Below are positions 27,561-58,582 of a stretch of DNA of 64,000 bases, one piece after another. A program made the translations under genes and the position numbers. The notes beneath the pieces were generated by a model. The model made no database searches and was not told where the DNA came from. It saw nothing but the letters and a program-made list of their open reading frames with translations. The stretch lies in assembly GCA_900466745.1 (NCBI GenBank), contig UBNE01000028.1:62001-126000 (forward strand), given 5' to 3'. The DNA comes from Hyphomicrobiales bacterium (GTDB taxonomy: Bacteria; Pseudomonadota; Alphaproteobacteria; Rhizobiales; Beijerinckiaceae). The first letter of the stretch is position 1. The number at the start of each line of letters is the position of its first letter.

Positions 27561-27812
27561 TCATAGGCGTCTGGCAAGATATTCACAGAAGCTATCAACG
27601 GTCGGATGCTGATCGAGAATGTCTGGGTCGAGTTCGATCTGAAGTTTTTCTTCGACCGCCAGAATAAAATGAACCGCCATCGCGGAATCCAGACCTAATT
27701 CGGGGAAGGTCGCGGAGCGAGGGATACTGCCTGAGTCGATATCAAGAATCAAAGCCAACTCTCTAGTGCACAAGAGGTAAATTTCGCTAAATGTGTCCAT
27801 TTCCGGATTCAT
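27561..27812 (-). CDS. Stand-alone acyl carrier protein
   Basis: An 83-aa acyl carrier protein with the phosphopantetheine site at Ser43 in ELGLDSAMAV and the usual four-helix spacing. It starts 22 bases after the stop of the acyl-AMP ligase gene, so they form one operon. Dedicated ACPs next to fatty acyl-AMP ligases receive the activated acyl chain directly. The likely downstream partner is the polyketide synthase at 49932, for which it could deliver a starter chain. Or it feeds the oxoamine synthase. Confidence 0.88.
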   Translation of the reverse strand: MNPEMDTFSEIYLLCTRELALILDIDSGSIPRSATFPELGLDSAMAVHFILAVEEKLQIELDPDILDQHPTVDSFCEYLARRL

Positions 27813-27834
27813 TCACCTAGATATCAGATTACCT

Positions 27835-29574
27835 TTACGATAAACTAAAAACTTCAAATTCACTATCGAGCCAAAGTTGTCTGGCTAGAAAACGTTGAAC
27901 TTTTCCGCTCGTCGTTTTTGGCAGGGCCCCGGGTTTGATCAGCGTGATCTTAGCGATCGAAATCTCATGGGCTTCAATAACGGCAGCCCGGATTGCAGCC
28001 TCAATCACGCGACAATCCAGCCCATGCCGATGGGTGCGCTCGACCTCCTGGACCAGAACGATCTTTTCCAGCCCTGATCGGTCCGGAACGGTGAACACCG
28101 CTCCATGATCGCGGCGAAGGGCAGGATGGGCTTCGGCCGCAGTCGCCTCGATGTCCTGGGGATAGTGATTGACACCGCGGATGATCAGCAGGTCCTTCAA
28201 TCTGCCAAGAAGGAACAGGCCCAGTTCGGCATCCAGATGGCCGAGGTCCCCCGTCCGCAACCAACCTTCAGCCGGCGCGGACTCCCCTGCTATCGCAGCG
28301 CGGAAGAGCTGCTGGGTATCGGCCGATTTCGCCCAGTAGCCTTGCGCCACGCTGGCGCCCCGGATCCACACTTCACCCACTCTTGACGGCGCCAGGCGCT
28401 GGCGCGTGTCAGGATCGACAATGGCGATCTCAAGTCCATCGGCTACAACGCCACAGCAGACAATCGACGCAGTGTCCGCGTCCGCAGTGGGCTCGACGAT
28501 CTCGCGCTCCTGCAGGGCCCGAACACTCATATCCTTCAGCACAGGCCCTTTCGCTGCCGCCGCAGGCGCACTGACCATCAGGGTTGCCTCAGCCAGCCCG
28601 TAAGCCGGACGCAGGACTTCCGCGCGAAAACCATAAGGGGCGAAACAATTCGTGAAGCGTTGCAGTGTGCTGGTGCGCACAGGCTCGGCGGCATTGATCG
28701 CGAGGCGCCAGCCACTTAGGTCGACGCCCTCCATCTGCTCCGGACGGAAGCGGTCCACGCACAGATCGTAAGCGAAATTCGGTGCAGCTGCGGCCTCTGC
28801 TCCGAAACGGCTGATGTTCCGCAGCCAACCGAGCGGCCTGTGCATGAAACCTGAAGGTGGCATCAGGATGCTGGTCGCTCCGCAGTAAAGCGGCAGCAGC
28901 AGGTTCAGGATGAGCCCCATATCATGATAGTGAGGCACCCAATTGACATGGCGAGCGCCGGCGCTGGTGCCAAACCGCGCCTGCATCATCGTGAGATTGG
29001 CGAGAAGATTGCCATGCGTCACCATCACGCCCCGTGGCGAGCTCGTCGAACCGGAGGTATACTGGAGAAAAGCGAGCGTATCGCATTCAACCGCCTTCAC
29101 AGATGAGCGGGCGACATCCTCGCGGCCAAGGACTACCGGGACATGCACGATCCCCTGCCCGGCGAGTTGCTCCAGAAAGGCGGGCCGTAACCCATCCCAG
29201 TCGCCGCCTGGTGTCAGAACCAGACGCGGCGAGCAGTCGGCGATGATGGCGGCGCTCGCGTCCGCCCGCGCCCTTTTGCGCGGCAGCATGAGCGGGACGG
29301 CCACGACCCTGGCGATCAGGCAGGCAAGATACGCCACGATAAATTCGAGGCCCGTCGGAAAGACGAGCAATGCTCGCTCTCCTGGCCGGCTCCGCTCCGA
29401 CAGATCGGCCGCCAACGCGCTTGCCTCGCGAAGCAGCGCCGCGAAAGTCAGCTCTGATACGACGCCATGAGCGTCGGAGGTCAAGGCGACTGCAGATTGC
29501 GCCCCTCGCGTACCGGCATGATGTACCAGCACCTCCGGTAGCGACAAATGGTCGTTCATGTCACTTGAACCCAT
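27835..29574 (-). CDS. Fatty acyl-AMP ligase (FAAL, FadD-like)
   Basis: A 579-aa adenylating enzyme. The ATP-binding loop is YTSGSTSSPRGV (about 172-183). The conserved NWVPHYHDMGLI and the C-terminal GRLKDLLIIRGVNHYPQDIE are hallmarks of the FAAL branch, which makes acyl-adenylates and passes them to an ACP and not to CoA. Start ATG 29574 has GAGG eight bases upstream; a TTG two codons further up is possible. It is co-transcribed with the ACP. In the capsule context it probably supplies the starter acyl chain for the RkpA-like synthase. Confidence 0.9.
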   Translation of the reverse strand: MGSSDMNDHLSLPEVLVHHAGTRGAQSAVALTSDAHGVVSELTFAALLREASALAADLSERSRPGERALLVFPTGLEFIVAYLACLIARVVAVPLMLPRKRARADASAAIIADCSPRLVLTPGGDWDGLRPAFLEQLAGQGIVHVPVVLGREDVARSSVKAVECDTLAFLQYTSGSTSSPRGVMVTHGNLLANLTMMQARFGTSAGARHVNWVPHYHDMGLILNLLLPLYCGATSILMPPSGFMHRPLGWLRNISRFGAEAAAAPNFAYDLCVDRFRPEQMEGVDLSGWRLAINAAEPVRTSTLQRFTNCFAPYGFRAEVLRPAYGLAEATLMVSAPAAAAKGPVLKDMSVRALQEREIVEPTADADTASIVCCGVVADGLEIAIVDPDTRQRLAPSRVGEVWIRGASVAQGYWAKSADTQQLFRAAIAGESAPAEGWLRTGDLGHLDAELGLFLLGRLKDLLIIRGVNHYPQDIEATAAEAHPALRRDHGAVFTVPDRSGLEKIVLVQEVERTHRHGLDCRVIEAAIRAAVIEAHEISIAKITLIKPGALPKTTSGKVQRFLARQLWLDSEFEVFSLS

Positions 29575-29720
29575 CAGCAACGCCTCGAGTACGTCTCGAT
29601 AAACATGTGGAGACCGTCAATTGCATATCGCATCGCAATAGATGCCTCTTGGCCACGCTTGCAAGAAGCGGGGGAACAAGGCAGCTGTTTCAATGAACCG
29701 CGTTACTGGAGCGCCGGATC

Positions 29721-31472
29721 ATGATGGATGGGCGGCAGAATGATGAATCAGTTCCTTCGGCGGCAGCGTCCGGGGAACGTGATCTTCTGCCTCTCATGGA
29801 GGTCCAACCGCCCGGCCGGCGCAACCGTGACGGTACGGTCTCTTATTGGCTGGTTCCGCCTCTAGACCATCTGATGTACGGCCCGTTTCTGCGCTTAGCA
29901 GCAGGGCGTTATTGCCTGAGCTTCAAGGCACAGGTCGGCCTGGCATTGCCTGGAGATCATCCCATCCTAGGAGTCGAAATCGTCGCACAGAACCGAGTCC
30001 TGCGAGCCTGGAGAGACTTCACCGCTGCCGAGCTTCGAAGCGGCACGCAGCAGATGCTGTTCGAAGTGCCAGATGCGATCGGTGCAGGATCAGAGAGCGA
30101 CGCTCCGTTCGAGTTTCGCTTCACCGCGTTTGGACGCGGCACGTTTCGTGTGACCGAGCTTTCTCTGCGACCGCTCCGCTCGATCGATACGCCCTTTGAC
30201 CAACAGATGATATGGCGCCTGCTCGATCGCTTCCGCCGGGTTCCAGTACCCGGGTGCATGAGGATTTCGCCGCTATCGATCAGCCATCTCAAGTTCGGGC
30301 GGCCCTGGACACGCTTCTGTCTGCCGAGCGGCCGTTTCACGCTCGATCTGGAATTCGAACTCTTTTCGCTCAAGCGAGCCGAAAGTCCCGCGCTCGAAGT
30401 TCGGCTCGTCGATCATGAAAGACATGTTGTTATCGAGAAGCAGTTTCTGGGTCGGGACCTCGATGGCAACAAGCTGTCCATTCCGTTTTCCGTTCCTGCC
30501 GATATGAGTTACGAAGCCGGCCGGCCGGCCCGGTTGCGGATCGAGATAAACCATTTCGGGACCATCCGGTTGGCGCTCAATGACATCCGTGTCGTCCGCG
30601 TTGGCGGAGTGACGGAAAACGAGGTTTATGTACCTCGGCCATTCACCACCGCTGTCCCCTTGCGCAAGAACCTCCTCGTTCTCGGCAATTGCCAGGCCCG
30701 GATCGTGGCTCGGGCCCTGCAAAACCACCGCGGCTTTTCCCGACAGTTCCAAGTTTTTCATCATGAGCTCGAGCTGCCACAGAATTTGCGACAGCAAGCC
30801 CTGAGCGACCTTGAGGCCAGCGACATCCTGTTGATTCAGGACATCAAGGAATGGGAAATGTATCCGCTTCGCGAGCATGTCCCGCCGGGCGCACAGATTC
30901 TGCGTTACCCTTGCGTACGCTTCGCTTCGCTGTGGCCCTTTGACGCGTTCAACGGCCCCGACGATAAGCTCGCGGCAGCCAAGGACTATCCAAATTTCGA
31001 GTTTACATATTTCGATGGGCTATTAGCTCGACTCCGTCGGGAGATTCCCGATCCAGAGGAGCGCTTCAGCGTCTACCGCGACCTTGCAATTGACGGGATC
31101 ATCAATCCCGCCCGGCTTCATATGTTCGAAGAACGACGCCTCCTTGCCATGGATCAGAAGTTCGACATAGGCGTTGGAGCCTTCATCCTCGAGAATTTTC
31201 GGAAACGGCGGCTGTTTCACACAACCGCCCATCCCAACGGCAAGCTGCTCAACATGCTCCTTGCCTATATCGGCCGCGAACTCGGGGTCTCTTGCACGTA
31301 TTGGACCACGTTGGGGTTGGATACGCTCCGCGACCTGCAAGTACCGGTTCATCCTGCTGTGGCGAAGAAGTTATCCGTGATCTGGGCCAATGAGAGAACC
31401 CACTATCGCTATCGTGGTCGTATGGTGACGTGGGAGCAGTACTTCCAAAAATACATTACTCACTACGGTTAG
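29721..31472 (+). CDS. WcbI-type capsule protein with N-terminal beta-sandwich modules
   Basis: A 583-aa protein. The C-terminal 270 residues match the WcbI family (putative polysaccharide acetyltransferase/esterase fold): LLVLGNCQARIVARAL (around 318), then ILLIQDI, and a late HPNGKLLNMLL histidine motif. The N-terminal 300 residues hold two beta-rich modules beginning YGPFLRLAAGRYCLSF (about 53) and FCLPSGRFTLDLEFEL (about 195), similar to a module in the gene at 59959. WcbI proteins are encoded in capsule loci, and the usual family length is near 300, so this is a fusion. It is divergent from the acyl-AMP ligase gene across 146 bases that must hold both promoters. Confidence 0.78.
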   Translation: MMDGRQNDESVPSAAASGERDLLPLMEVQPPGRRNRDGTVSYWLVPPLDHLMYGPFLRLAAGRYCLSFKAQVGLALPGDHPILGVEIVAQNRVLRAWRDFTAAELRSGTQQMLFEVPDAIGAGSESDAPFEFRFTAFGRGTFRVTELSLRPLRSIDTPFDQQMIWRLLDRFRRVPVPGCMRISPLSISHLKFGRPWTRFCLPSGRFTLDLEFELFSLKRAESPALEVRLVDHERHVVIEKQFLGRDLDGNKLSIPFSVPADMSYEAGRPARLRIEINHFGTIRLALNDIRVVRVGGVTENEVYVPRPFTTAVPLRKNLLVLGNCQARIVARALQNHRGFSRQFQVFHHELELPQNLRQQALSDLEASDILLIQDIKEWEMYPLREHVPPGAQILRYPCVRFASLWPFDAFNGPDDKLAAAKDYPNFEFTYFDGLLARLRREIPDPEERFSVYRDLAIDGIINPARLHMFEERRLLAMDQKFDIGVGAFILENFRKRRLFHTTAHPNGKLLNMLLAYIGRELGVSCTYWTTLGLDTLRDLQVPVHPAVAKKLSVIWANERTHYRYRGRMVTWEQYFQKYITHYG

Positions 31473-31527: not shown

Positions 31528-32412
31528 TTAGTCTGGAAAACGCTGCAGCAGTCGGCGCTGGCGGCGGAGAAAGAACGGAGCGTAGAGGCTGTGGCATAGT
31601 CCAAAAAGCGCCATCAGGCGTGACGGCACCAGAAGGAAGCGCCCGGCTTCCGCCTGTCGGATCATCGATTCGGCAACCCAGTCGGCCGATAGCGTGCCTC
31701 CTCCCCGCGCGATCAGGCGCGTCACCGTTGGACGGCGACTGTTGTCATAGGCGAGTTGGGGCGTATCAGTATCGGGGGGACAGGCGACGCTGACGGAGAT
31801 GCCAAATGGCGCGAGCTCGCTAAAAAGCGTCTCCGCTAGGGCGCGGACTGCAAACTTGCTTGGCCCATAGCCGGAATAACCAGCAATGCCGGTAAACGCC
31901 GCAGCGCTCGCGACCAGCGTCATCCGCCCTCGTCCTGCGGACTGCATTGCCGGCGCAACAGCCCGTACGAGGTGAAGCGTTCCGAAATAGTTGGTTTCCA
32001 TCTGCGCCCGATGCGAGGCAAGATCCAGATCCATGAACAAGCCGGGTTCGACAATGCCGGCCGAGGTGATCAGCCAATCAATCCGGCCATGGCGCGCGAG
32101 GATCGAAGCGACCGCCGCCTCACATGTGACCGCTTCGCCCACATCCACGGAGTGGACTTCAGCCAAGGGAAACGCCCCTTCCTGCAGGTTCCGCTGGGCT
32201 TCGCACAGCCGCTCCTCGTTTCGCCCAAGGAGAACGACCAGATAGCCGCGTTGTTGCAGTTGCCTAGCGCAAGCCAACCCAATCCCGCTCGATCCACCGG
32301 AGATGACCGCCACTGGCTGCTGGCTGAGCTGCACCGACACCGCAATCCTCGACCTTGACGCCCCCGTTCTCGCAAAATCCTGCGGGATTGCCCGCGTGTC
32401 CTGCGCTAACAC
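31528..32412 (-). CDS. Short-chain dehydrogenase/reductase, RkpH/ketosphinganine-reductase-like
   Basis: A 294-aa classical SDR: cofactor loop SGGSSGIG (about 38-45), NYFGTLHLV, catalytic serine in VASAAAF and YxxxK as YGPSK (around 175-179). The ending with a hydrophobic patch and RRQRR suggests membrane contact. Fold and context resemble 3-ketosphinganine reductases and RkpH of Sinorhizobium. It would reduce the keto group of the alpha-oxoamine made by the RkpG-like enzyme to an amino alcohol. The GTG start at 32412 is uncertain; the conserved core starts near residue 31. Confidence 0.82.
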   Translation of the reverse strand: MLAQDTRAIPQDFARTGASRSRIAVSVQLSQQPVAVISGGSSGIGLACARQLQQRGYLVVLLGRNEERLCEAQRNLQEGAFPLAEVHSVDVGEAVTCEAAVASILARHGRIDWLITSAGIVEPGLFMDLDLASHRAQMETNYFGTLHLVRAVAPAMQSAGRGRMTLVASAAAFTGIAGYSGYGPSKFAVRALAETLFSELAPFGISVSVACPPDTDTPQLAYDNSRRPTVTRLIARGGGTLSADWVAESMIRQAEAGRFLLVPSRLMALFGLCHSLYAPFFLRRQRRLLQRFPD

Positions 32413-32776
32413 GGCAGGCTTAACCCTATGCCTTCTTCAACGCAAAACGCACCTTTCGGCAGCAGTGTCTCAACCTTCTTCAAACACTTGTTCAGTGCTC
32501 TTCTCTATGAACGATTCGCAAGGTCGCAACTCATCAGGGTTCGCGATCAAACCTGATTTCGGCAATTTCACACGATAATTTTTCGCCGGCTTGCCCATAT
32601 AGTTTCATCTTCTTGGAAGGTGAAGCCCTCCAGAGAACATATCGAGCTTAAGCATATCGCTGCGACGAAAAGAGCTTGCTTGACATAGGGTTATCCTGCT
32701 GGCTATCCGACGCCCGGCTGCAGGAGCGCCACATGGTTGTCGCCGGCGGTCGGATTTGGATTGCGAGTTGCCGGAC
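32413..32776. other. Divergent promoter region between the SDR and manC
   Basis: 364 bases without a gene. It holds the upstream region of the minus-strand SDR and the candidate manC promoter at 32680-32708. The stretch 32480-32600 is less GC-rich than the flanks. No repeats seen. Confidence 0.5.
32680..32708 (+). promoter_or_regulatory. Candidate sigma-70-type promoter of manC
   Basis: A perfect TTGACA at 32680-32685 followed, 17 bases later, by CTATCC (32703-32708). The -35 is ideal and the -10 weak, as is common in Alphaproteobacteria. Transcription would start near 32716, about 60 bases before the manC ATG. Confidence 0.4.
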
Positions 32777-34189
32777 ATGCCGTCGAAAATCATACCTGTG
32801 GTGATGTGTGGCGGCGCGGGGACGCGGCTTTGGCCAGTTTCACGCGATACGATGCCGAAGCAATTCATCCCGCTGCTCGGGGAGGAATCGACCTTCCAGC
32901 GCGCGATGCGGCTCCTATCAGAGCCTTCCGTCTTCGAGCCGGCGATCGTAATCACCAATGTGGATTATCGCTTCACGGTGCAGGAGCAGCTTAAGACTAT
33001 CGGCATCGCCGCGCAGATCGTGCTCGAGCCGAGCCGCCGCGATTCCGCCGCCGCAATTGCGGTCGGAACAGAACTCGCGCTCGCTCGCGACGAGAAAGCG
33101 GTGGTCGGCGTCTTCGCCGCCGATCATATCGTCCAGGACACGAAGCTCTTCGTCGAGACCTGTCGCCTGGCCGGCATCGCGGCCGCGCAGGGCCGGATCG
33201 TCACCATAGGCATCCCGCCGACTCACCCCGCGACTGGCTACGGCTATATCCGGCCGGGCGAGGAGATCGGCGGGCATGCGCGCAAGGTCTCCGCCTTCGT
33301 CGAGAAGCCGGATGCCATCCGCGCTGCGCAATATCTGCTCGACGGCTATCTCTGGAACTCGGGCAACTTCATCTTCGACGGTGCGACGATGCGCGCCGAA
33401 CTCCAAGCCTTGGCGCCGGACGTCGCTGGCCCGGTTGCCGAGGCCGTCGACGGGGCGAAGCTGGACCTCGACTTCCTGCGACTCGACGCCGCGGCCTTCG
33501 GCCGGGCACAGAAGATCTCAATCGACTATGCGGTGATGGAGAAGACGGACAAGGCCGCCGTGGTCTCCGGCCAGTTCGGGTGGTCCGACGTCGGTGGCTG
33601 GGCTGCGGTCTGGGACTTGGCCGATAAGGACGGGAGCGGAAATGTTATCGAAGGGCGCGGCTACATACTCGAAGGGTCAGGCAACCTAGTTCGCTCGGAG
33701 GAAGCCTTGATCGCGCTGGTCGGCCTCGACGATGTCGCGGTGATCGCGACACGCGACGCGGTGCTCGTCACCCCCAAAGCCAAGGCCGACAAGGTCAAGG
33801 AGATGGTGGCGCTGATCACGACAGCAGGCGAATCGGAGGCTGGCGCCCATCGCGAGATCCAGCGCCCCTGGGGCAAGTATCTCTCGATCGATTTAGGGGG
33901 ACGCCATCAGGTCAAGCGCATCACGGTGAAGCCTGGCGGAGTGCTCTCGCTGCAGAAGCATCACCATCGCGCCGAGCACTGGATCGTGGTGCGCGGCACG
34001 GCCAAGGTAACGCGCAATGAAGAGACCATCATGGTGCATGAGACCGAGTCGATCTATCTGCCGATCGGCTGCATACACCGCATGGCGAACCCAGGCAGGA
34101 TCCCGCTCGAACTGATCGAGGTGCAGGTCGGCTCTTATCTTGGCGAGGACGACATCGTGCGCATCGAGGACATCTATAAGCGTGTCTGA
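32777..34189 (+). CDS. manC: Mannose-1-phosphate guanylyltransferase / mannose-6-phosphate isomerase
   Basis: A 470-aa bifunctional enzyme making GDP-mannose for the capsule. The nucleotidyltransferase signature GGAGTRLWPVSRDTMPKQF is at residues 10-28, FVEKPDA follows, and the C-terminal cupin isomerase domain has RPWGKY and the metal-binding HHHRAEHW. Length is standard for ManC/CpsB/NoeJ. ATG 32777 is chosen because the conserved N-terminus begins there; a TTG seven codons upstream is less likely. Presence implies mannose or a GDP-mannose-derived sugar (fucose, rhamnose, perosamine) in the polymer. Confidence 0.95.
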   Translation: MPSKIIPVVMCGGAGTRLWPVSRDTMPKQFIPLLGEESTFQRAMRLLSEPSVFEPAIVITNVDYRFTVQEQLKTIGIAAQIVLEPSRRDSAAAIAVGTELALARDEKAVVGVFAADHIVQDTKLFVETCRLAGIAAAQGRIVTIGIPPTHPATGYGYIRPGEEIGGHARKVSAFVEKPDAIRAAQYLLDGYLWNSGNFIFDGATMRAELQALAPDVAGPVAEAVDGAKLDLDFLRLDAAAFGRAQKISIDYAVMEKTDKAAVVSGQFGWSDVGGWAAVWDLADKDGSGNVIEGRGYILEGSGNLVRSEEALIALVGLDDVAVIATRDAVLVTPKAKADKVKEMVALITTAGESEAGAHREIQRPWGKYLSIDLGGRHQVKRITVKPGGVLSLQKHHHRAEHWIVVRGTAKVTRNEETIMVHETESIYLPIGCIHRMANPGRIPLELIEVQVGSYLGEDDIVRIEDIYKRV

Positions 34190-36652: not shown

Positions 36653-36662
36653 GGCGCAGGCG

Positions 36663-42480: not shown

Positions 42481-42620
42481 TGCTCGCCCCGGAACGGCTG
42501 AACCGCCGCACCACATAAGGAAACTGATTGCGCGATCCGAAGGGAAGATGCAAGACACGAGGCGAACGATAGGGAAGGTGAAAGATCCATGGTGGGGATT
42601 TGCGCTTCAGCGAAACTGCG

Positions 42621-45982: not shown

Positions 45983-46708
45983 CTAGATTGTCTTCAAGAA
46001 TGCCGATGCGTCTCGCGCGACCTCCGGTTTGGGCGTGTCCTCCGCATATTCCTCGTTCCGAAGGACTTCGGCATAGGAGGCGACTAGGCAGGCGAAGATA
46101 ATGAAAAAAATCAGTGCCATCGCGCCCACCGCGATGTCGCACCACGTCATGTCAATTCCCATCCATTCGAAGCGCGGTGCGCCGAAGATGAGGATCAAGA
46201 TGTTCATTGCGATGATCATCAATCTGACTTCGGTCGGCCCACTACCCAAAAGCGAGACGTGAAACTCGTTTGAGACGGAGGTCCGTACGAACGAATAGAT
46301 CGACAGCGCGTGGTAGCCGGCCAAAGCAAGCAGCGCGATATCCATTCCGACAAAGGGCGAAATGCCCATCCCGAGGCAGATCAGAAGATTGCCGATGACG
46401 TCGACGGTCTGGTCGAGGAAATAGCCATAGCGCGGCCGCTCAATCCCCCTGACGCGGGCAAGCGTCCCATCAAGCGAGTCGCCGAACCAGTGCAACACGA
46501 GACCAAACGACGCGAGCCAAAGAAAGCTCGTCGAATAGAAGGTCAGGCCATAGCCTGCCAGGGTCACGAACGCGCCGAAAATGCCAAACGCCGTGAGACC
46601 GTCCGGCTTGATCCACACCGGCAGACGCGACGCGATCCATATGAGGATCTTGCGCTCGACCTGCGCTGTTACACTCGCATGAATACGGATCAAGCTCGCT
46701 CCCCTCAA
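45983..46708 (-). CDS. CDP-alcohol phosphatidyltransferase family protein
   Basis: A 241-aa multi-pass membrane enzyme. The family motif is intact: Asp77, Asp80-Gly81, Ala84-Arg85, Gly95, Asp99, Asp103 (DSLDGTLARV, then GYFLDQTVD). It moves a phospho-alcohol from CDP-alcohol to an acceptor, as in phospholipid or inositol-phosphate head-group synthesis. In this locus it could add a phospho head group to the sphingoid-like lipid or make a phospholipid acceptor for the capsule. The TTG at 46708 is the longest start; a TTG five codons later has a better AGGGGAG site. Convergent with kpsE2. Confidence 0.88.
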   Translation of the reverse strand: MRGASLIRIHASVTAQVERKILIWIASRLPVWIKPDGLTAFGIFGAFVTLAGYGLTFYSTSFLWLASFGLVLHWFGDSLDGTLARVRGIERPRYGYFLDQTVDVIGNLLICLGMGISPFVGMDIALLALAGYHALSIYSFVRTSVSNEFHVSLLGSGPTEVRLMIIAMNILILIFGAPRFEWMGIDMTWCDIAVGAMALIFFIIFACLVASYAEVLRNEEYAEDTPKPEVARDASAFLKTI

Positions 46709-46844
46709 TACTGAACCGCTATCGCGAGATGCTCCTCAAAAATCAAGCCTGATTGCGCTTGATCGAGCCCTAGCCTATGCAAATGATGCCGGTCCCGACG
46801 AGGCTATCGGCCTCTTGCACCGCCCGCAATCGGAAGCGAATGGA

Positions 46845-49931: not shown

Positions 49932-52900
49932 ATGTCCCAGACGTCTGCAATTGTTGTCGGTGAAACTGCGATCGTCGGAGCGGCCTGCCAATTGCCAGGT
50001 GCCCCCAATCTCGCAGCGTTCTGGAAACTCTTACAAGGCGAGCAGAACGCGATTTCGTCAAGGCCCGATGGGCGCTGGAATGTCGAGCGCTTTCTCCGGC
50101 CGGGCAAACCGACTCCCGGCTTCGCCTATACTTTTGCCGGAGGCTATCTGGAACATCCGCTTGCATTCGACCCCGCGCCCTTTGGTCTGTCGCCGCGGGA
50201 AGTCGAACAGATGGACCCGCAGCAGAGGCTTCTACTGAAGACGGTCTGGCGGGCTTTCGAAGATGCCGGCATTTCACCCTCGTCGGTCGCCGGACGGAAC
50301 GTCGGCGTCTATGTCGGCGCTTCGGTTGTCGACTATCAGAGCGCGGCGTCGCATGATCCCGCCCTGATGGGTAGCCACTTTATGACTGGCAACTCGTTGT
50401 CCATCCTCTCGAACCGCATTTCTTACGTCTTCGATCTGAAAGGTCCGAGTTTTACGATCGACTCAGCTTGCTCTTCCTCCTTCATTGCTTTGACACAAGC
50501 CATGACCGCGCTGGAGGCGGGGAAAATCGACATGGCAATCGTCGCCGGTGTCAATCTTCTGCTTTCGCCGGCTCCATTCATCGGATTTTCGCAGGCACGG
50601 ATGCTCTCTCCCACGGGCGCCTGCCGGCCGTTCTCAAACGATGGTGACGGCTATGTCCGTGCGGAGGGAAGTGCCGTAGTGCTGCTACAGCGCCACGCCG
50701 ATGCGACAAGACAGGGGCGGCGGATACGCGGAATTATTACCGCTGCCGGAACGAATTCGGATGGCTGGACGAATGGCATCGCACTGCCGTCGTCCAAGGC
50801 GCAGCAGGCTCTGATCGAAGATATCTATGCCGCTGCGAACGTTTCCGCCGACGATCTGGCTTTTGTCGAGGCTCACGGAACCGGTACCAAAATTGGCGAC
50901 CCAGTCGAAGCAGCGGCCATTGGCTGTGCTCTTGGCAAACGCCGCAGCAGGCCCTTGCCGATCGGCTCGGTGAAATCGAACATTGGCCATCTGGAGGCTG
51001 CCTCGGGCCTTGCCGGACTGCTCAAGGCGGCGCTGGCGCTTGAGCAGGGTATCGTGCCTCGATCGCTTTTCTCGGACGTGCCCAGTGAAACGATCGACTT
51101 CGCCGACCTCAATCTTGCGCTGATCTCGACCGCGCAGCCTTTTGAGGAGTCGATCGCAGGAATCTGCAACTATGGTTTCGGCGGTTCCAATGCGCACGTG
51201 ATTCTGCGCAAAGCTCCGAGCTCGCTTGTGAACGCCAAGCCGCGACCGCGCCTTGTCTCGACTTCGACTGACAACGGGCCGCGCGCACCAGAAGTCCTGC
51301 TCCTCAGCGCGGCGACCGAGGAGGCCCTGAAAATTCGGGCGCGTCAGCTGGGCGAAAGCCTCGGCCGATCTTTGCACGTCTGCGAGATGGCGAACGCCCT
51401 TGGTCACCAGGCCGAGCGGTTGTCTCACCGCCTCGCATTTCCAGTGCCCGATGACGACGAAACCGCCTCGCGAATCCTTCTCGACTTCGCAGACGGAGTC
51501 TCCGCCGCCGGTGCAGTTGCGCAAGCACGCGCCCGGCAAGAAGAACGCTCCCCAGTCTTCATATTTTCCGGTAACGGAAGTCAGTACGCCGCCATGGGCC
51601 AGAAGGTCTATGCTGCTAATGCCGCATTTCGGCGAGAGATCGCAGAGATTGACGAGCTCTGTGTCGCATTGGCGGGCTGGTCGCTGGCGGAGCGGTTTCG
51701 AAACGGCGTCTCCGACGAGGATCTAGCGCAGACCTCCGTGGCCCAGCCGCTTATCTTTGCCGTCCAATCAGCATTGGCGGCTGTCCTCAAGGGATACGGT
51801 GTGCGTCCGGCAGCGGTCGTCGGGCATAGCATCGGAGAAATCGCGGCCGCGGAAGCGGCTGGGATTCTTTCCCGAGAAGAAGCTCTGCGTGTCATCCATG
51901 CGAGAAGCGCCCATCAGCAGTTGACCCGAGGAACTGGCAAGATGCTGGTCCTGGCTGCGCAGGAACAAGCTGTTCGCGCGCTGATCGAGGACTTTTGCTA
52001 TCAGACCATCGACATAGCCGCGATCAACGGCCCCGGTTCCACAACTGTGGCGGGTTCCAATGAAGAGATCGACGCCCTCATGGCATCGGCCCGCAAGCGC
52101 AGGGTGGCGAGCGTTTTGCTCGATGTCGAATACCCATTCCATTCAGCTCTGCTCGCGCCGCTCCATGACAACCTTGTCGCCGATCTTGGCAACCTCACCG
52201 GCCGAGAGGGTGACGTCGACTTCTTTTCGACCGTGACCGGTCGACGCGTGGTCGGCTCGTCGATCAACGCGCTCTACTGGGCTGACAACATGCGGCAGAC
52301 CGTGCGGTTCATGCCGGCGATTGAAGCGGCCTTGGAAGCGTATCCGGACGCCGCTTTCGTTGAAATTGGCGCCCGGCCAATCCTTGGCAACGTTGTCAAT
52401 GACATCCTCCGGAAGCAGCAAAAGACGAATCCTGTCCTAGCTACGCTCTCAGCGCAGGAGATCGTATCAGGCGACCCGGTTCGTCTCGTCGCTGCGAACC
52501 TGATTGCGCACGGTATCCGCCATGATCGCGAGGCTGTTTTCGGCGACAGGCTAGCTGCGACCGTTGCCTTGCCGCCGTACCCATTTCAGGAAGAGAATTT
52601 TTATCTCGGCGAGACGTCTGAAGCGATCGGCGTCTTTGGACGCCCCATGACCTCCTCCTCGCTCCATCCTCTGCTGGGGCCGAGGATGGCGGAAGGATCG
52701 CCGGAATGGCGCAGTCTGCTCGACCCGACGTTGCTGCCTTATCTCAGCGACCACGTCGTCAACGGGGCGGTGATTGCGCCTGCCACCGCGTTCGTCGAAA
52801 TGGCTCTTGCAGCAGCCGACGCCTTGCATCCGGGCGCGAGGCTTGAACTCGATGAGTTCGACATTCTTCGTCCGCTGACCTTCGGCGAGGACGAAACGCG

Positions 52901-55900
52901 GGAGATCTCGGTCCGATACGGCAGCCGAGTCGAGACGATCGAGATCTGGAGCAGGAGGCGTCTGTCCGGAGATGATTGGCTGCTGCATGCACGGGGCGTG
53001 ATCAGGGTCTTGCCGCCTTCTGAAGCACCGCAGACAGTGTTTCCTCAGCCAGCGTCCCCACGGACGAGCACCGCAAAGGAGGTTTATGCCGAGACGGAGC
53101 GGGCAGGCCTCAGCTATGGTCAGGCCTTCCAACTCGTCGTCAGCGGATTTTGGGACGAGACTGTCGGCCACTCGGTCCTAAAGCCTGCAGTCGGGGGAAC
53201 CGGAGCGTTCGCGAACGACCATATCCTGCACCCCATTTCGTTCGATGCAGCATTTCACGGCCTGCTGCTAGCGCGTCGCCAACGCGACGGAGAACGGAAG
53301 GCCTATCTGCCGATCCGTTTCCGCAAGATCAGGGTCTGGCGTCCAAGGCAGCCGGTCCTGCGCGCGATCACCGAACTCGCCAAGGAGACGGATCGATTCA
53401 AGTCGGTACGGGTCTTCCTGCTCGGCGAAGGCGATGTCGTCGTGGCTTCGGCGGAGGCAGCCGTCTTTCGGGCCGTGCATCTGATCAAACCGTTTGTGGC
53501 CGAACGCACGTTCCGCGAAGCGCCGGTTGCAGTCGCTCGCGCTCCTATCCACCTCGATGAGGCACCAGTGGTCGGGGCTGCCTTGAGCGATCGGCAGGAT
53601 GCATCGAACGTTCGGCTGCTGTTGAAGGCCACGGCCATCGGTCTGGCGCAGCGCCTGTTCTCGCAAGGCGCTGCGCCAGATGCTGTTCCGCGGTGGCTCA
53701 TGAAGGCGGCAGAAGAGCTTCTTGAAACGGCGGGCGCGCTCGAAAACAGACCTGATGGGCGTATCGGCTTGCCCAGTTCATCCGTGCCTGCACCGGAAAT
53801 TGTCCTTGCGACAATCTGCGCTCGCTTCCCGCAGGCAAATGCGGAAATCCAGCTCATCTCACAGGCCATCGCCGGTGTCGATGCTCTACTCACGCTGGCC
53901 GCTCCAGGGCATGCACCGGCCACGCGGCCGGGACAAACCTGGTGGGCATCATCGCTGCACGCTCACCAGGCTGCCGAAACGATCGCCCACCAGGTTGAAC
54001 AGATTGCAAGCGATCGCAGGGGTCTGCGCATCCTCGTCACAGGAGAGGCCGGCCCGATCCTGGCAGGGGCTCTCGCGGATGTGCTCGCTCCTGGCAGCGC
54101 CGATGTGACGGTTCTTCACGACGCGGCGAATCTGCCGGATCCTGTGTCCGGCTCTGGCGAACGAGTCGGCCGTTTCGACCTGCTGGTCGGCCTTTATGGC
54201 CTCGTGACTTTGGGTGATGGCGCAGCGGACCTTGCCGGGTCGATCGGTCAGCTCGGCCCTGATGCCGCGATCTTGATCGGAGCCGCCAACGCCGATCCCA
54301 ACATCTCGTTCCTACAGACCATCGGCACTCCCGCGGCAGAACTCACGCTCCCTCCGGCTCTCCGTGAATGGTTGGCAGCCGCGAATGTGGTCGATCTGAG
54401 CGGGGAAGTTCTCAGCGATGCGGCAATCACTCTCTATCGTGGGCGGACGCCAAACCACGCGACGGCGGCACGCTCGAAAAGCCGCATTCTCCTCCTTTCG
54501 CCACCGGAAGCACCCGTCAGCCCCGAGGAACTCGGGCTGAATGCTGCGGATATTCTCGAAGCGTCACCGTCCGCAGAGCTCGAAACCTGGCTCGCGGCTG
54601 GTTCTGACGACACTTCGGCCATCCTGCTTCCCCTGAGCTTCGCAGTCAGCGACAGCGCAGTTCTCGCCGCCCGGCTCGACGCCCTCATCGCATTGCTTCA
54701 CAAACTGGGCGAAGCACGGCGGACACTGCTTTTCATGGTCGTGACCATGCCGGACGCCGCGGGCGAGAGCCCCGACGCATCACTGGCTGTCAGGGCGGCG
54801 ATAGGAGGTTTCGTTCGAGTCGCCATCAACGAATTTCCCGATTTGGACTTGCGACTGGTCGACGTAGAGACTGCCGATCTCGCGTCGAAGCTGGTGGACA
54901 TCATCCGTGATCCGGGCAGCGAACGTGAGTGGCGGATTTCTAGCGAAGGCATTTCCGTAAATCGCATGCGTCGCGGCATGGTCGACGACATGGCGCTCGG
55001 CCAAAGGGAGCGAGCCGTTCTTCATTTCGGGGAAAGCGGAAGCCTCAGCGGCTTCGAATGGCTCAAAGAATCGAGAGAAGCGCCCCGCGATGGAGAAATC
55101 GAAATCGAGGTCGCGGCATCCAGCCTGAACTATCGCGATCTGCTCGTGGCGCTGGGCGTTCTCGACGACGATCTACTCGGAGCCGGCCTGACTCGGGCAG
55201 CACTCGGCTTCGAGTGCTCCGGGACGGTTGTCCGTGTTGGAGCTGGCGTCACGACATTGAACCCGGGTGATCGGGTCATGGGTTTTGCCGCCGGTACCTT
55301 CGCTTCGCATGTGGTCTGTCCCGCCTCGCACATGTTCCCGATTCCACAGGGAATGACACTGGAAGGCGCGGCAACGGTTCCCGTCGCATTCGCGACGGCC
55401 TGGCACGCGCTCGTCGAGCGGGGCCGCATTAGGGCTGGGGAGACAGTGCTCATTCATGGCGGCGCCGGCGGAGTCGGCCTCGCCGCCATTCAGATCGCTA
55501 AACTGAAACAGGCGCGGATCCTCGCGACTGCGCGCAGTGGCGCCCGGCGAGCACTGGCACGGGCGGCGGGAGCTGATTTCGCCTTCGACTCCAGGAATGA
55601 GCATTTCGAACACGCCATCCGTGACCGGTTCGGTGGCGTTGACCTCGTCCTCAATTCGCTGGCGGGCGCCGCGATGCTGGCAAGCTTCAGATTGCTGAAG
55701 CCCTTCGGCCGGTTCCTCGAACTCGGCAAACGCGATTTTCTCGAGAACTCGCTGCTTCCTCTGCGCCCCTTCGTCAGGAACATCGTCTATTCGGGCGTGG
55801 ACCTCGACGAATTGCTCGCGCACGACCTGCCATCCGTCCGCCAGATGGTGGAGGAAGTCGCAGCGCTCTTCCAGGCTGGGCAATTGCAGCCTCTACCCTA

Positions 55901-57245
55901 TCGTAGCTTTTCGGCCTCTGACGTCGACAATGCCTTCCGGCTGATGCAGGCATCGGACCATGTCGGAAAGATCGTCATTAGCCCCCCGAAGGTGGCTCGC
56001 ATCGACGTAGCCAGGGCTGAATTTCAGGCAAGGCCAGGCCTCTACCTCGTCATCGGCGGGACAACCGGACTTGGATTTGCCACTGCGAAGTGGCTGGCGG
56101 AAAGAGGCGCTACGGCGATTGCCCTCTTGTCCCGCCGTGGCCAGGTCGACGCTGACTTGGCTGAGGCGGTGTCCGATCTGCAGGAGGCCGGCGTACACGT
56201 CGTCTCGCATCAGCTCGATGTGCGCGACGGCGAGGCGGTGAAGGCCGTCGTCGCGCAGCTCGTCGCCAATCTCGGTCCCGTCCGGGGGCTGATCCATGCG
56301 GCAGTCCATCTCGACGACGGGCTGATCGCCAACTTGACACCGGAGCGTCTGCGAGACGTGCTCCGCGCCAAGACTGACGGCATCGTCAATCTCGAAGCAG
56401 CACTGGAGGACCAGCCGCTCGATTTCTTCGTCGCCTATTCGTCGGCGAGCGCCTTGATCGGCAGTCCCGGACAAGCAGCCTATGTCACGGCCAATACTTT
56501 CCTGGAAGGCTTCATGAAGCGCAGGCGGAAGCTTGGAAAACCGGCACTGGCGATCGGCTGGGGAGCGATTTCGGACGTCGGAATCCTGGCGCGGGACAAA
56601 CAACTCAGCCAGCGCCTGCGTCGTACGACGGGGGTGTCCGCAATCAGGTCTTCGGAGGCCCTCGCGCATCTTGGTCGACTGCTGAGCCTGGGAGATGCAG
56701 TCGGTCCCGTTCAGTACCTGACCAATATCGGCCGCTCGACGATGGCTGATAAACTCGCGTTGCTGAAGACCCCGGCCTTTACAGGGTTGGGGTTGTCGGG
56801 TGCTGGTCAGGATCAGGACGAGGCCGGCGACGCCCTGCTCGATCTGGCAAACAAGAGCCCACAAGAGGCGCTGGCTATCGTAAAGAACGCAATGCTTCGG
56901 GAAGTTGCCTCGATTCTGCGCCTACCGGTCGACAGGATCGATCCAGATCGCCCATTGGGCGAGATCGGCCTCGATTCATTGATGGCGCTTGAACTGCATC
57001 TGGCGCTCGAAACCTCCCTGGGCACGCAAATCGCCCTTGTTGGTGTGGGGGACAGAACCTTGTCTGGCATGGCGCAAATGATCGTCAACCAGGTCTGCCG
57101 AGCGGGTGGCCCGGCCGATGACGACATGGTACTCGCTGGCGATAGCGCCCAACCAGCGAAGATCGCAGCTGGTTCCATAGAAGAACAAGCCACGGTCTCC
57201 GAGCATGTGCCACCGGCGACGCGTTCCGCGAGGTTTGGACAATGA
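49932..57245 (+). CDS. rkpA: RkpA-like type I polyketide/fatty acid synthase (KS-AT-DH-ER-KR-ACP)
   Basis: A 2437-aa reducing synthase. KS: Cys180 in IDSACSSS, with histidines in EAHGTGTK (about 315) and SNIGHLEA (about 352). AT: Ser633 in GHSIGE; YPFHS favours malonyl-CoA. DH: HVVNGAVIAP (about 941) and HPISFDAAFHG (about 1103). A stretch of about 480 residues without catalytic motifs follows, then ER with HGGAGGVGL (about 1842), KR with GGTTGLGF (about 2041) and Tyr in AAYVTANT (about 2182), and ACP Ser2349 in LGEIGLDSLM. With all reductive domains it makes saturated chains, like a fatty acid synthase. Length and order match Sinorhizobium RkpA (K-antigen). The stop overlaps the oxoamine synthase start by four bases and there is no thioesterase, so release by that enzyme is likely. 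Confidence 0.95.
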   Translation: MSQTSAIVVGETAIVGAACQLPGAPNLAAFWKLLQGEQNAISSRPDGRWNVERFLRPGKPTPGFAYTFAGGYLEHPLAFDPAPFGLSPREVEQMDPQQRLLLKTVWRAFEDAGISPSSVAGRNVGVYVGASVVDYQSAASHDPALMGSHFMTGNSLSILSNRISYVFDLKGPSFTIDSACSSSFIALTQAMTALEAGKIDMAIVAGVNLLLSPAPFIGFSQARMLSPTGACRPFSNDGDGYVRAEGSAVVLLQRHADATRQGRRIRGIITAAGTNSDGWTNGIALPSSKAQQALIEDIYAAANVSADDLAFVEAHGTGTKIGDPVEAAAIGCALGKRRSRPLPIGSVKSNIGHLEAASGLAGLLKAALALEQGIVPRSLFSDVPSETIDFADLNLALISTAQPFEESIAGICNYGFGGSNAHVILRKAPSSLVNAKPRPRLVSTSTDNGPRAPEVLLLSAATEEALKIRARQLGESLGRSLHVCEMANALGHQAERLSHRLAFPVPDDDETASRILLDFADGVSAAGAVAQARARQEERSPVFIFSGNGSQYAAMGQKVYAANAAFRREIAEIDELCVALAGWSLAERFRNGVSDEDLAQTSVAQPLIFAVQSALAAVLKGYGVRPAAVVGHSIGEIAAAEAAGILSREEALRVIHARSAHQQLTRGTGKMLVLAAQEQAVRALIEDFCYQTIDIAAINGPGSTTVAGSNEEIDALMASARKRRVASVLLDVEYPFHSALLAPLHDNLVADLGNLTGREGDVDFFSTVTGRRVVGSSINALYWADNMRQTVRFMPAIEAALEAYPDAAFVEIGARPILGNVVNDILRKQQKTNPVLATLSAQEIVSGDPVRLVAANLIAHGIRHDREAVFGDRLAATVALPPYPFQEENFYLGETSEAIGVFGRPMTSSSLHPLLGPRMAEGSPEWRSLLDPTLLPYLSDHVVNGAVIAPATAFVEMALAAADALHPGARLELDEFDILRPLTFGEDETREISVRYGSRVETIEIWSRRRLSGDDWLLHARGVIRVLPPSEAPQTVFPQPASPRTSTAKEVYAETERAGLSYGQAFQLVVSGFWDETVGHSVLKPAVGGTGAFANDHILHPISFDAAFHGLLLARRQRDGERKAYLPIRFRKIRVWRPRQPVLRAITELAKETDRFKSVRVFLLGEGDVVVASAEAAVFRAVHLIKPFVAERTFREAPVAVARAPIHLDEAPVVGAALSDRQDASNVRLLLKATAIGLAQRLFSQGAAPDAVPRWLMKAAEELLETAGALENRPDGRIGLPSSSVPAPEIVLATICARFPQANAEIQLISQAIAGVDALLTLAAPGHAPATRPGQTWWASSLHAHQAAETIAHQVEQIASDRRGLRILVTGEAGPILAGALADVLAPGSADVTVLHDAANLPDPVSGSGERVGRFDLLVGLYGLVTLGDGAADLAGSIGQLGPDAAILIGAANADPNISFLQTIGTPAAELTLPPALREWLAAANVVDLSGEVLSDAAITLYRGRTPNHATAARSKSRILLLSPPEAPVSPEELGLNAADILEASPSAELETWLAAGSDDTSAILLPLSFAVSDSAVLAARLDALIALLHKLGEARRTLLFMVVTMPDAAGESPDASLAVRAAIGGFVRVAINEFPDLDLRLVDVETADLASKLVDIIRDPGSEREWRISSEGISVNRMRRGMVDDMALGQRERAVLHFGESGSLSGFEWLKESREAPRDGEIEIEVAASSLNYRDLLVALGVLDDDLLGAGLTRAALGFECSGTVVRVGAGVTTLNPGDRVMGFAAGTFASHVVCPASHMFPIPQGMTLEGAATVPVAFATAWHALVERGRIRAGETVLIHGGAGGVGLAAIQIAKLKQARILATARSGARRALARAAGADFAFDSRNEHFEHAIRDRFGGVDLVLNSLAGAAMLASFRLLKPFGRFLELGKRDFLENSLLPLRPFVRNIVYSGVDLDELLAHDLPSVRQMVEEVAALFQAGQLQPLPYRSFSASDVDNAFRLMQASDHVGKIVISPPKVARIDVARAEFQARPGLYLVIGGTTGLGFATAKWLAERGATAIALLSRRGQVDADLAEAVSDLQEAGVHVVSHQLDVRDGEAVKAVVAQLVANLGPVRGLIHAAVHLDDGLIANLTPERLRDVLRAKTDGIVNLEAALEDQPLDFFVAYSSASALIGSPGQAAYVTANTFLEGFMKRRRKLGKPALAIGWGAISDVGILARDKQLSQRLRRTTGVSAIRSSEALAHLGRLLSLGDAVGPVQYLTNIGRSTMADKLALLKTPAFTGLGLSGAGQDQDEAGDALLDLANKSPQEALAIVKNAMLREVASILRLPVDRIDPDRPLGEIGLDSLMALELHLALETSLGTQIALVGVGDRTLSGMAQMIVNQVCRAGGPADDDMVLAGDSAQPAKIAAGSIEEQATVSEHVPPATRSARFGQ

Positions 57246-58582
57246 GCGGTGCGACCGGCCGGCTGACGGACGGAGCGCTTTCCGCATTGCTTGATCAGAT
57301 GCGGGGCACCAGCGAGCCATCCACACCCGCGAGTCTCGCCGCTAGAAAGCTCAGCCATGACGTCGGTATCGCAAGCCACCCGCTTTATCGGCAGATCGAG
57401 CTTCAGAAAAATCTCGCGACGCTAGCTGGCTTACCCAGCCCCTATTACCGGCGGCACGACGCCCGTGCCGGTCATGTCTCGGTCGTCGAGGGGAAGCAGG
57501 TCGTCAACTTCACCTCCTACGACTATCTGGGCCTGAATGGCGATCCGCGAATCCTTAGTGCAGTCGTGCAGGCTGCCAGTGAGTTCGGCACGTCCGTATC
57601 GGGAAGTCGGATCACGTCCGGTGAGCGTCAGATTCACCGCGAACTCGAGCTCGCGCTCGCCAAGAATTATGCTGCCGAGGATTGTGTTGCTTTCGTTTCC
57701 GGACATGCGGCGGCCGTTTCCGCGCTGGCCACTTTGATGGGACCGAAGGACCTCATTGTTCACGACGCCTTCATCCATAATTGCATCGTCGTCGGTGCTC
57801 AGCTTGCTGGCAGCACGCGCCGATTGTTTCCTCACAATGATCTGGATGCGCTCGAAACGCTTCTCGCTGTCGACCGCGAACGCTTCCAACGCGTACTCAT
57901 TGTGAGCGAGGGTCTGTTCTCGATGGATGGCGACGGGCCGGATCTGGAGCGCCTGCTCGCGATCAAGGAACGTTTTGCGGCTTGGCTGATGATCGACGAT
58001 GCGCACGGTCTGGGCATCCTGGGCGAAACGGGCCGCGGCATCTTCGAGCATCAACATCTCGACCCCGCACGGGTTGATTTCTGGCTGGGCACCTTGTCGA
58101 AGTCCCTCGTCAGTTGCGGTGGTTACATCGCCAGCAGCGCCATGGCGGTCGAATTGCTGAAATCCTTTGCGCCTGGCTTCGTCTACAGCGTGGGCATGCC
58201 GGCAACCAACGCCGCCGCTGCGAAAACAGCGCTGGATCTCATGAACCGCGAGCCGGAGCGCGTCGCGCGACTCCAACAACAGTCGCGGCGCTTCCATAAG
58301 ACAGCGAAAAGAGCCGGGCTGGACGTCGGAGACAGCTGGGGTCTTGGAATCATACCGCTGATGACTGGTGATTCGCTTGCGACCCTAGTCCTTGCCGAAC
58401 GCCTTCTGGCCCGAGGCATCAACGCCTTTCCGGTCCTTCCCCCGGGCGTGCCCGAGAGCGGGGCTAGGCTGCGCTTCTTCATTAATGCGCCCCACAGCGA
58501 CAGTCAGATCGACGAGGCCGTCGCGGCCGTCGCAGAGGAAATTGAATACCTGCGGCACCAACCTCTTGCCAGCCCGTCTTGA
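57242..58582 (+). CDS. rkpG: Alpha-oxoamine synthase (RkpG-like, PLP-dependent)
   Basis: A 446-aa fold-type I PLP enzyme of the AONS/serine-palmitoyltransferase family. The PLP lysine is Lys287 in GTLSKSLVS; IDDAHGLGILGETGRG precedes it and SYDYLGLNGDP marks the N-terminal substrate region. These enzymes condense an acyl thioester with an amino acid, releasing CO2 and a keto-amine. An N-terminal extension of about 60 residues may dock to the PKS ACP. The ATGA overlap with the PKS argues that it takes the finished chain directly from the megasynthase. The amino acid used (serine, glycine or alanine) cannot be read from sequence. Confidence 0.9.
   Translation: MSGATGRLTDGALSALLDQMRGTSEPSTPASLAARKLSHDVGIASHPLYRQIELQKNLATLAGLPSPYYRRHDARAGHVSVVEGKQVVNFTSYDYLGLNGDPRILSAVVQAASEFGTSVSGSRITSGERQIHRELELALAKNYAAEDCVAFVSGHAAAVSALATLMGPKDLIVHDAFIHNCIVVGAQLAGSTRRLFPHNDLDALETLLAVDRERFQRVLIVSEGLFSMDGDGPDLERLLAIKERFAAWLMIDDAHGLGILGETGRGIFEHQHLDPARVDFWLGTLSKSLVSCGGYIASSAMAVELLKSFAPGFVYSVGMPATNAAAAKTALDLMNREPERVARLQQQSRRFHKTAKRAGLDVGDSWGLGIIPLMTGDSLATLVLAERLLARGINAFPVLPPGVPESGARLRFFINAPHSDSQIDEAVAAVAEEIEYLRHQPLASPS

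Follow-up and report, generated by a model that had tools for sequence, protein, structure and literature searches.

We analyzed a 64,000-nt stretch of DNA (the window) from the 4.49-Mb, 73-contig draft genome of a Hyphomicrobiales bacterium (contig UBNE01000028.1, positions 62,001 to 126,000), in which genes for a polyketide synthase (PKS), an alpha-oxoamine synthase (AOS), and a CDP-alcohol phosphotransferase (CDPOH) lie among capsule export genes. This locus probably combines capsule-type export with a dedicated pathway for a lipid anchor and represents a variant free of the 3-deoxy-D-manno-octulosonic acid (Kdo) linker in which the anchor would be a phospho-sphingoid lipid made by the PKS. 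Four observations underlie this reading: the gene content, the conservation of a gene unit in close relatives, the linkage of the AOS family to capsule genes, and the absence of KpsC/KpsS (KpsC/S) where CDPOH is present. From these we infer every enzymatic step, the head group, and its attachment to the glycan.

A first-pass annotation had described a probable sphingoid-like lipid pathway within a capsule export locus, whose product might be both the capsule anchor and a new lipid class. As a whole, that interpretation is partly supported. The genes that it named are all present where it placed them, with the correction that the Rieske gene is on the minus strand, antisense to a plus-strand open reading frame (ORF) that has no Pfam match. 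The proposed pathway genes are as follows, in window numbering; names of the form G### and L### denote individual genomes and loci that we compared.

27561..27812, minus strand: acyl carrier protein (ACP); Pfam PP-binding, 53 bits; downstream of the fatty acyl-AMP ligase (FAAL) gene on the same strand; homologue adjoins FAAL in G350
27835..29580, minus strand: FAAL; Pfam AMP-binding and NCBIfam matches; solved FAALs at E = 7e-130; adjoins WcbI in G350, two Bosea genomes, and G082
29721..31472, plus strand: WcbI-type protein with an N-terminal extension; PF18588, 156 bits; structure 4bqn at E = 3e-5
31528..32412, minus strand: short-chain dehydrogenase/reductase (SDR), probable 3-ketosphinganine reductase; PF00106; groups in a tree with the Sinorhizobium meliloti rkp-locus SDR
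45983..46708, minus strand: CDPOH, proposed head-group enzyme; PF01066 above cut-off; CEPT1 at E = 3e-5; fold; linkage to AOS
46815..48170, plus strand: family 4 glycosyltransferase (GT4) paired with CDPOH, proposed to add the first sugar; Pfam; PimA structure matches
48305..49555, minus strand: Rieske (ring-hydroxylating) oxygenase alpha subunit, proposed to hydroxylate the chain; PF00355 and PF00848; Rhizobium oryziradicis homologue near AOS
49932..57245, plus strand: type I PKS, KS-AT-DH-ER-KR-ACP, presumed iterative; Pfam and active-site motifs
57242..58582, plus strand: AOS; Pfam and NCBIfam matches; solved serine palmitoyltransferases at E = 4e-55; alignment

In the proposed pathway, the ACP domain of the PKS would carry the long, saturated acyl chain that this enzyme builds, the AOS would condense this chain with an amino acid, probably serine, to give a 3-keto long-chain base, and the SDR would reduce that base. 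The Rieske enzyme probably hydroxylates the chain, and FAAL with ACP, perhaps together with WcbI, probably supplies a second acyl group or a starter. CDPOH would add a phospho-alcohol head group to the base, the adjacent GT4 would add the first sugar to the head group, and the glycan grown on it would exit via KpsM, KpsT, KpsE, and KpsD. Such an anchor would replace the classical terminus, in which a phosphatidylglycerol-type lipid carries a Kdo linker made by KpsC and KpsS. Where this AOS family occurs together with KpsC/S, the head-group function may in some loci fall to a phosphoglycerol transferase of the LtaS family.

KpsC and KpsS are missing from the AOS genomes of the family that have CDPOH

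Searches whose controls matched in E. coli and B. subtilis returned no KpsC/KpsS candidate (PF05159) in the 73-contig draft, so the known Kdo linker is not expected in this organism. We also detected no LtaS-family match in the genome. Among 119 genomes of the family searched, 24 carried a PKS-type AOS of more than 380 bits, and these divided into 14 with CDPOH, 8 with KpsC/S, none with both, and 2 with neither (Fisher p = 6e-5; our Fisher tests ignore phylogeny). AOS rows below 380 bits were left out of this table, including one (G268) with CDPOH 2.3 kb away, and CDPOH was matched in 25 genomes, 11 of which fall outside the 14. The CDPOH relative in those 14 was on the same contig as AOS, 0.5 to 21 kb away, and within 5 kb in 11 of them.

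We obtained a similar picture from a survey of 119 AOS regions (distinct from the 119 genomes, and including the window and five loci that duplicate other regions). Six regions had CDPOH, and none of these had LtaS or KpsC/S. The local KpsC/S profile used here misses a second KpsC/S cluster, to which no CDPOH region belongs. On the AOS tree, the CDPOH label changed at least four times along supported branches by a quick method without bootstrap, so that AOS and CDPOH seem not to have been inherited together as one block.

An LtaS-family gene is present in many loci in which this AOS family is accompanied by KpsC/S. Among annotated plasmids, an LTA-synthase family protein is present in PKS-AOS-SDR capsule loci of Pseudomonas, Caballeronia, and Paraburkholderia and in an AOS-SDR capsule locus of Acidisoma, with a related protein in Shinella. 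In S. meliloti, the unannotated gap between the SDR gene and a capsule biosynthesis gene holds a 512-amino-acid LtaS-family member, which by gene order would be RkpI. This ORF (L179:18361-19899, strain Ak57) is absent from the PLSDB gene table; the 3.72-Mb Ak57 record is labeled pSymB, for which it seems too large. Strong LtaS matches occurred in 14 of 249 genomes of the order (with at most six candidates scored per genome), always within 4 kb of KpsC/S. We rejected the idea that LtaS is universal in KpsC/S loci, as 36 of the 49 genomes with both AOS and KpsC/S had no strong LtaS match.

LtaS-family enzymes transfer phosphoglycerol from phosphatidylglycerol, and the KpsS/KpsC acceptor is the lyso form of a phosphatidylglycerol-type lipid. 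A phosphatidylglycerol-type lipid is described as the acceptor of KpsS/KpsC in PMC11041684. We suggest that the LtaS-family protein may make the Kdo acceptor, as a single-chain phosphoglycerol lipid would resemble the phosphatidylglycerol-type one.

The AOS family is linked to capsule loci

The window also contains genes for glycan synthesis and export, as follows.

32756..34189, plus strand: ManC-type GDP-mannose pyrophosphorylase/isomerase; Pfam
41644..42558, minus strand: KpsM-like ABC permease; PF01061
42600..43925, plus strand: KpsE-like co-polymerase 1; TIGR01010, 246 bits, below the cut-off of 437.5
43871..44701, plus strand: KpsT-like ATPase; PF00005; NCBIfam relatives TagH/Wzt/VexC
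44744..45946, plus strand: KpsE-like co-polymerase 2; TIGR01010, 279 bits, below the cut-off of 437.5
58610..59767, minus strand: KpsD-like outer-membrane export protein; PF02563
61953..63317, plus strand: second GT4; near AOS in G350 and two Bosea genomes

A 455-amino-acid protein encoded at 40269-41636, adjoining KpsM, has a weak glycosyl hydrolase family 99 match (E = 0.08) and is possibly a glycan-cleaving enzyme of the export locus.

The capsule setting claimed by the first-pass annotation is borne out across the order. In the 249 genomes, we counted PKS-type AOS (at least 365 bits) in 58, strong KpsC/S in 73, and strong KpsE in 71; these counts leave out 10 genomes with weak PF05159 matches (E of 1e-12 or worse), 44 with KpsE matches weaker than 1e-50, and an AOS tier of 41-47% below 365 bits. 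AOS and KpsC/S occurred together in 49 genomes, AOS alone in 9, KpsC/S alone in 24, and neither in 167, so that KpsC/S accompanied AOS in 49/58 genomes against 24/191 without AOS. The corresponding numbers for AOS and KpsE were 49, 9, 22, and 169. With one KpsC/S place taken per genome, the 49 genomes with AOS and KpsC/S comprised 26 pairs within 20 kb on the same contig, 8 farther apart on the same contig, and 15 on different contigs. As a control, none of 20 paralogous AOS-family proteins (at most 37% identity) among the matches listed was within 20 kb.

When we clustered the 1397 ORFs that lay no more than 13 kb from AOS in 114 regions (the five duplicate loci were left out here and from the trees), SDR was the most recurrent partner (39 regions), followed by two KpsC/S clusters (28 and 11), LtaS-family proteins (24), KpsD (20), KpsE (19), KpsT (19), KpsM (16), cytochrome P450 (11), a lipid A type acyltransferase (7), PhyH (4), and CDPOH (4).

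These associations bear on the possibility that PKS, AOS, SDR, and CDPOH make a sphingolipid that stays free in the membrane or is secreted, and that their genes sit in capsule loci only as co-travelling surface traits. Pseudomonas fluorescens MYb115 accumulates free sphinganines, on which protection of Caenorhabditis elegans depends (PMC12134224), and Roseomonas locus L112 has the order P450-SDR-PKS-AOS-CDPOH with no capsule gene among the neighbors tested. The co-occurrence and close spacing of AOS with KpsC/S and KpsE argue against a free lipid, as does the finding that rkpA is among the genes affecting the lipid-anchored capsular polysaccharide (KPS) of S. meliloti (PMC5539429). We consider this alternative unlikely. 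L112 and L113 (from another member of the Acetobacteraceae), which combine PKS-AOS-CDPOH with P450 and SDR and have no KpsC/S, KpsE, or KpsD detected in the available stretch, are themselves candidate producers of a free phospho-sphingolipid.

The pathway genes form one unit in close relatives

G350, a genome of the same genus, has the order ACP-FAAL-WcbI-CDPOH-GT4-PKS-AOS-GT4-(262 amino acids)-SDR-lipid A type acyltransferase-P450-KpsM, with ACP through SDR in one 29-kb stretch and a fatty-acid hydroxylase gene in the vicinity. Bosea sp. OK403 and Leaf344 have CDPOH-GT4-PKS-AOS in the order of the window, and whole-genome searches placed WcbI and FAAL directly beside that CDPOH, giving a contiguous FAAL-WcbI-CDPOH-GT4-PKS-AOS series (these searches did not include ACP). 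The gene set reflects more than chance, since other genomes have these genes next to one another as well. FAAL-WcbI-CDPOH-GT4-PKS-AOS, with ACP, the second GT4, and SDR, is one evolutionary unit in close relatives, in agreement with the earlier proposal that FAAL and CDPOH belong to the pathway.

This conservation also weighs on the view that several pathways are involved: formation of the lipid by PKS, AOS, and SDR alone, acylation of the glycan by FAAL, ACP, and WcbI, and a part for CDPOH and GT4 in making glycan or phospholipid. In the window, FAAL/ACP/WcbI/SDR and CDPOH are set apart by genes for glycan synthesis and export, FAAL and WcbI in G082 are on a different contig from AOS and CDPOH, and CDPOH relatives occur on plasmids of sphingomonads, where the two regions inspected have no annotated PKS-AOS next to CDPOH. 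The contiguity in G350 and the two Bosea genomes and the proximity of CDPOH to AOS in 11 of the 14 family genomes speak for a joint pathway. In addition, AOS and CDPOH overlap by 4 bp in L112, an arrangement that connects CDPOH with the AOS product without recourse to capsule genes. Overall, a division into separate pathways has, in our judgment, a low probability.

As a side observation, a CysN/CysC-type sulfate activation gene recurs near PKS-AOS in a six-region cluster (L099, L115, G082a, G239, L136, and L143) and in G350 (L187:364-2268), which suggests sulfated glycans or lipids. G082 carries two PKS-AOS copies (C8 and C9) with AOS 62-63% identical to that of the window, and this genome has no KpsC/S.

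The PKS, AOS, and SDR core

By Pfam and motif inspection, the KS, AT, DH, ER, KR, and ACP domains of the PKS carry the usual active-site motifs. The AT motif is YPFH, which we take to be the malonyl type. We found no C-methyltransferase with Pfam, and a segment of about 540 residues that separates DH from ER is without a Pfam match. The AOS gene starts 4 bp before the PKS gene ends. AOS retains the pyridoxal phosphate lysine, DDAH, D252, H255, and H155 in alignment, and its closest relatives are from Bosea sp. (67-68% identity), compared with 63% for the same-genus genome; the organism is thus probably a Bosea or closely related to that genus.

The first-pass annotation named an oxoamine synthase and likened the SDR to ketosphinganine reductase. 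Of the curated NCBIfam cut-offs, AOS reached none, neither that of BioF nor that of serine palmitoyltransferase (best serine palmitoyltransferase model, 268.7 against 640 bits), and SDR scored 96 against 400 bits for ketodihydrosphingosine reductase. BioF, serine palmitoyltransferase, and ketodihydrosphingosine reductase are thus names by resemblance only. The SDR tree placed the window SDR in a 12-row set (support 100/97) with AOS-linked SDRs of Bosea, G350, Roseomonas, Shinella, and S. meliloti, consistent with a probable 3-ketosphinganine reductase.

The substrate of AOS determines whether CDPOH could act as proposed. With alanine or glycine, AOS would yield a 1-deoxy base or an amino ketone lacking the C1 hydroxyl, and CDPOH could not act on C1. 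The highest-scoring NCBIfam model by bits is BioF, which, with the unreached serine palmitoyltransferase cut-off, would allow this. However, the best solved-structure matches are serine palmitoyltransferases, and the PKS-linked AOS PfSgaB favors L-serine almost to the exclusion of L-alanine and glycine (PMC12134224). We therefore regard alanine or glycine as a very improbable substrate.

CDPOH and its GT4 partner

CDPOH matches PF01066 at 31.8 bits (cut-off, 22) and has the catalytic motif. As to whether it is of the cholinephosphotransferase type, which takes a CDP-alcohol and a lipid hydroxyl, or of the PgsA type, CEPT1 alone matched its sequence at E < 1, and in fold comparisons several CDP-OH subgroups tied. 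We set aside a housekeeping PgsA or Pss on the basis of neighbors, sequence match, and fold ranks. The adjacent GT4 had PimA as its only solved matches at E < 1e-8, and GT4 adjoined CDPOH in 8 of 12 fetched relatives. The notion that CDPOH is specific to the PKS-AOS pathway was rejected: 13 of 14 plasmid hits were from sphingomonads, and in two such regions (Sphingobium and Novosphingobium) the annotation shows neither PKS-AOS nor capsule genes next to CDPOH, so the enzyme family is wider than the pathway.

FAAL, WcbI, and the oxygenase position

The best solved-structure matches of FAAL are to FAALs over its full length, and it reached no FAAL-specific NCBIfam cut-off. For WcbI, a role in acyl transfer is a guess; WcbI was found in 4 of 25 genomes searched, each time with FAAL less than 300 bp away. 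FAAL and WcbI are not neighbors of AOS in the order at large. We likewise rejected FAAL, Rieske, and CDPOH as companions of AOS across the order. The regions of 32 relatives gave one weak FAAL (G210), one weak Rieske (G079), and no CDPOH match, and PKS matched in 29 of them (not in G090, G240, or G238). A motif scan of the same regions added CDPOH near AOS only in G079, with the other three motif matches more than 10 kb away.

The inclusion of the Rieske enzyme in the pathway, another first-pass proposal, is more weakly supported. Among the regions scanned, R. oryziradicis has a good homologue (38-39%) 2.7 kb from AOS, in a locus that also has P450, a lipid A type acyltransferase, and a KpsC/S protein. 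The only other match near AOS was a poor one in G079 (20%, 13 kb), and other loci have other oxygenases near AOS, namely P450 (11 regions), PhyH (4 regions), and a fatty-acid hydroxylase (Acidisoma and G350). Rieske, P450, PhyH, and fatty-acid hydroxylase may be alternative chain hydroxylases.

Evidence that weighs against a capsule anchor

Several findings count against an anchor pathway with CDPOH in place of KpsC/S. The CDPOH versus KpsC/S split amounts to eight genera versus three and so partly reflects shared descent. None of LtaS, KpsC/S, and CDPOH was found in 59 of the 119 regions, an overcount in that many regions are 20 kb or less and the profile misses one 11-region KpsC/S cluster. 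No PKS was labeled in 4 of 12 fetched CDPOH loci (G254, G308, G250, and G327), and a fifth (G336) had only a short one at 31%; no exporter gene was seen in the available stretch of 5 of 14 CDPOH loci (G343, G315, G254, G308, and G279). The lack of a capsule gene among the L112 neighbors tested means that a capsule is not a prerequisite for the lipid. Matches to FAAL of at least 51% were confined to the same 4 of 25 genomes as WcbI. In three of five genomes of the genus (G257, G294, and G325), we found no AOS, CDPOH, FAAL, or WcbI match at the limits used, and the locus is therefore accessory. The CDPOH structure model is of moderate quality (predicted local distance difference test score of 72.9, built on five sequences). 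The genome of the window has no TagD-type cytidylyltransferase; this argues against CDP-glycerol as the CDPOH substrate, and we do not commit to glycerol. Finally, the window SDR is placed apart from its counterpart in the Pseudomonas plasmid cluster most like sga; that counterpart falls with most others in a separate 42-row set.

Genes flanking the capsule locus

To the left of the capsule locus, the window encodes a Wadjet-type defense system at 758-7595 (JetA, a DUF4194 protein, an SbcC-like ATPase, and JetD) and, at 8806-15876, a serine recombinase, a TrwC-type relaxase, and a type IV coupling protein of a flanking conjugative or mobilizable element. Just past the right edge, at about 64709-65494 on the window scale (L059:709-1494), lies a transposase-like integrase core; beyond it are genes for glycine-betaine transport and an Mrp antiporter, and the capsule locus therefore probably ends near that edge.

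Comparison with known systems

The core PKS-AOS chemistry is published, so the core is not a wholly new lipid class and the first-pass suggestion is unsupported in that form: the PKS SgaA and AOS SgaB make sphinganines in P. fluorescens MYb115, and lipids 154 Da heavier than sphinganine were proposed to be phosphoglycerol-sphinganines (PMC12134224). The main text of that paper mentions no capsule, rkp, wcb, or polysaccharide, and no open-license PMC paper linking PKS-made sphingoid lipids to capsule anchors appeared in the titles and abstract openings of the matches listed. What is new here is the division between CDPOH and KpsC/S and the compact form of the locus in relatives; the absence of KpsC/S and the LtaS-family genes likewise extend the earlier annotation.

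The window resembles SgaABC in its monomodular PKS, adjacent AOS, and an SDR (PMC12134224). The Pseudomonas plasmid cluster most like sga, compared in place of MYb115 sequences, has PhyH, KpsC-type, GNAT, and LtaS-family genes between AOS and SDR, and the MYb115 locus tags RS19805, RS19800, and RS19775 likewise leave room for four genes (PMC12134224). In contrast to the KpsC/S and LtaS of that cluster, the window has CDPOH, FAAL/ACP, WcbI, and Rieske. Given the SDR tree, two or more lineages have probably supplied the SDR of such loci, and the window SDR would correspond to SgaC by position rather than by descent.

The parallel with the rkp-1 locus of S. meliloti (gene names from PMC7902896 and PMC3908369), already drawn by the first-pass annotation, is supported. 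Both loci share KpsD-PKS-AOS-SDR, with PKS, AOS, and SDR in the same order, AOS 44.5% identical, and the SDRs in one supported set. S. meliloti differs in that SDR is followed by an LtaS-family ORF and then by a capsule biosynthesis protein, which by order hold the RkpI and RkpJ positions, whereas the window has neither an LtaS-family protein nor KpsC/S of the rkp-1 type beside the core. The wcb and rkp clusters are orthologous (PMC3908369), and S. meliloti KPS is described as Kdo on a lipid anchor (PMC5539429).

Relatives of KpsM, KpsT, KpsE, and KpsD are shared with group 2 ABC-transporter capsules, which differ in having KpsC/KpsS (PMC11041684). Like Vi-type capsules, the window would specify an ABC-exported capsule without a poly-Kdo linker, but the Vi linker is an acylated N-acetylhexosamine rather than a PKS/AOS product (PMC12220298). 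The available text of that 2025 review of capsule attachment covers Kdo and Vi linkers and mentions neither polyketides nor rhizobia. The canonical Rhodobacterial sphingolipid pathway (SPT, AcpR, and AasR; PMC9386255) has in common an AOS, a dedicated ACP, and an acyl-activating ligase, whereas the chain in the window is expected from a PKS and the context is one of capsule genes and CDPOH.

Considering these systems together, we tentatively propose, with somewhat more doubt than confidence, a second class of ABC-exported capsules with a PKS-made phospho-sphingolipid terminus, in which CDPOH and a PimA-like GT4 (perhaps adding inositol phosphate and mannose) would replace KpsC/S and the LtaS-family protein. 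The rkp, wcb, and sga genes would then represent one pathway, with the MYb115 phosphoglycerol-sphinganines as intermediates on the way to the capsule anchor, imitating the phosphatidylglycerol-type lipid that the Kdo transferases use as acceptor, and with the LtaS-family protein at the RkpI position as the missing phosphoglycerol transferase. If true, rhizobial K antigen genes, wcb-type capsules, and the PKS-made sphingolipids of 2025 would join as one pathway, giving the PKS of rhizobial capsule genetics a biochemical role, naming LtaS-family proteins and CDPOH as candidate head-group enzymes, and predicting a capsule class without the Kdo linker.
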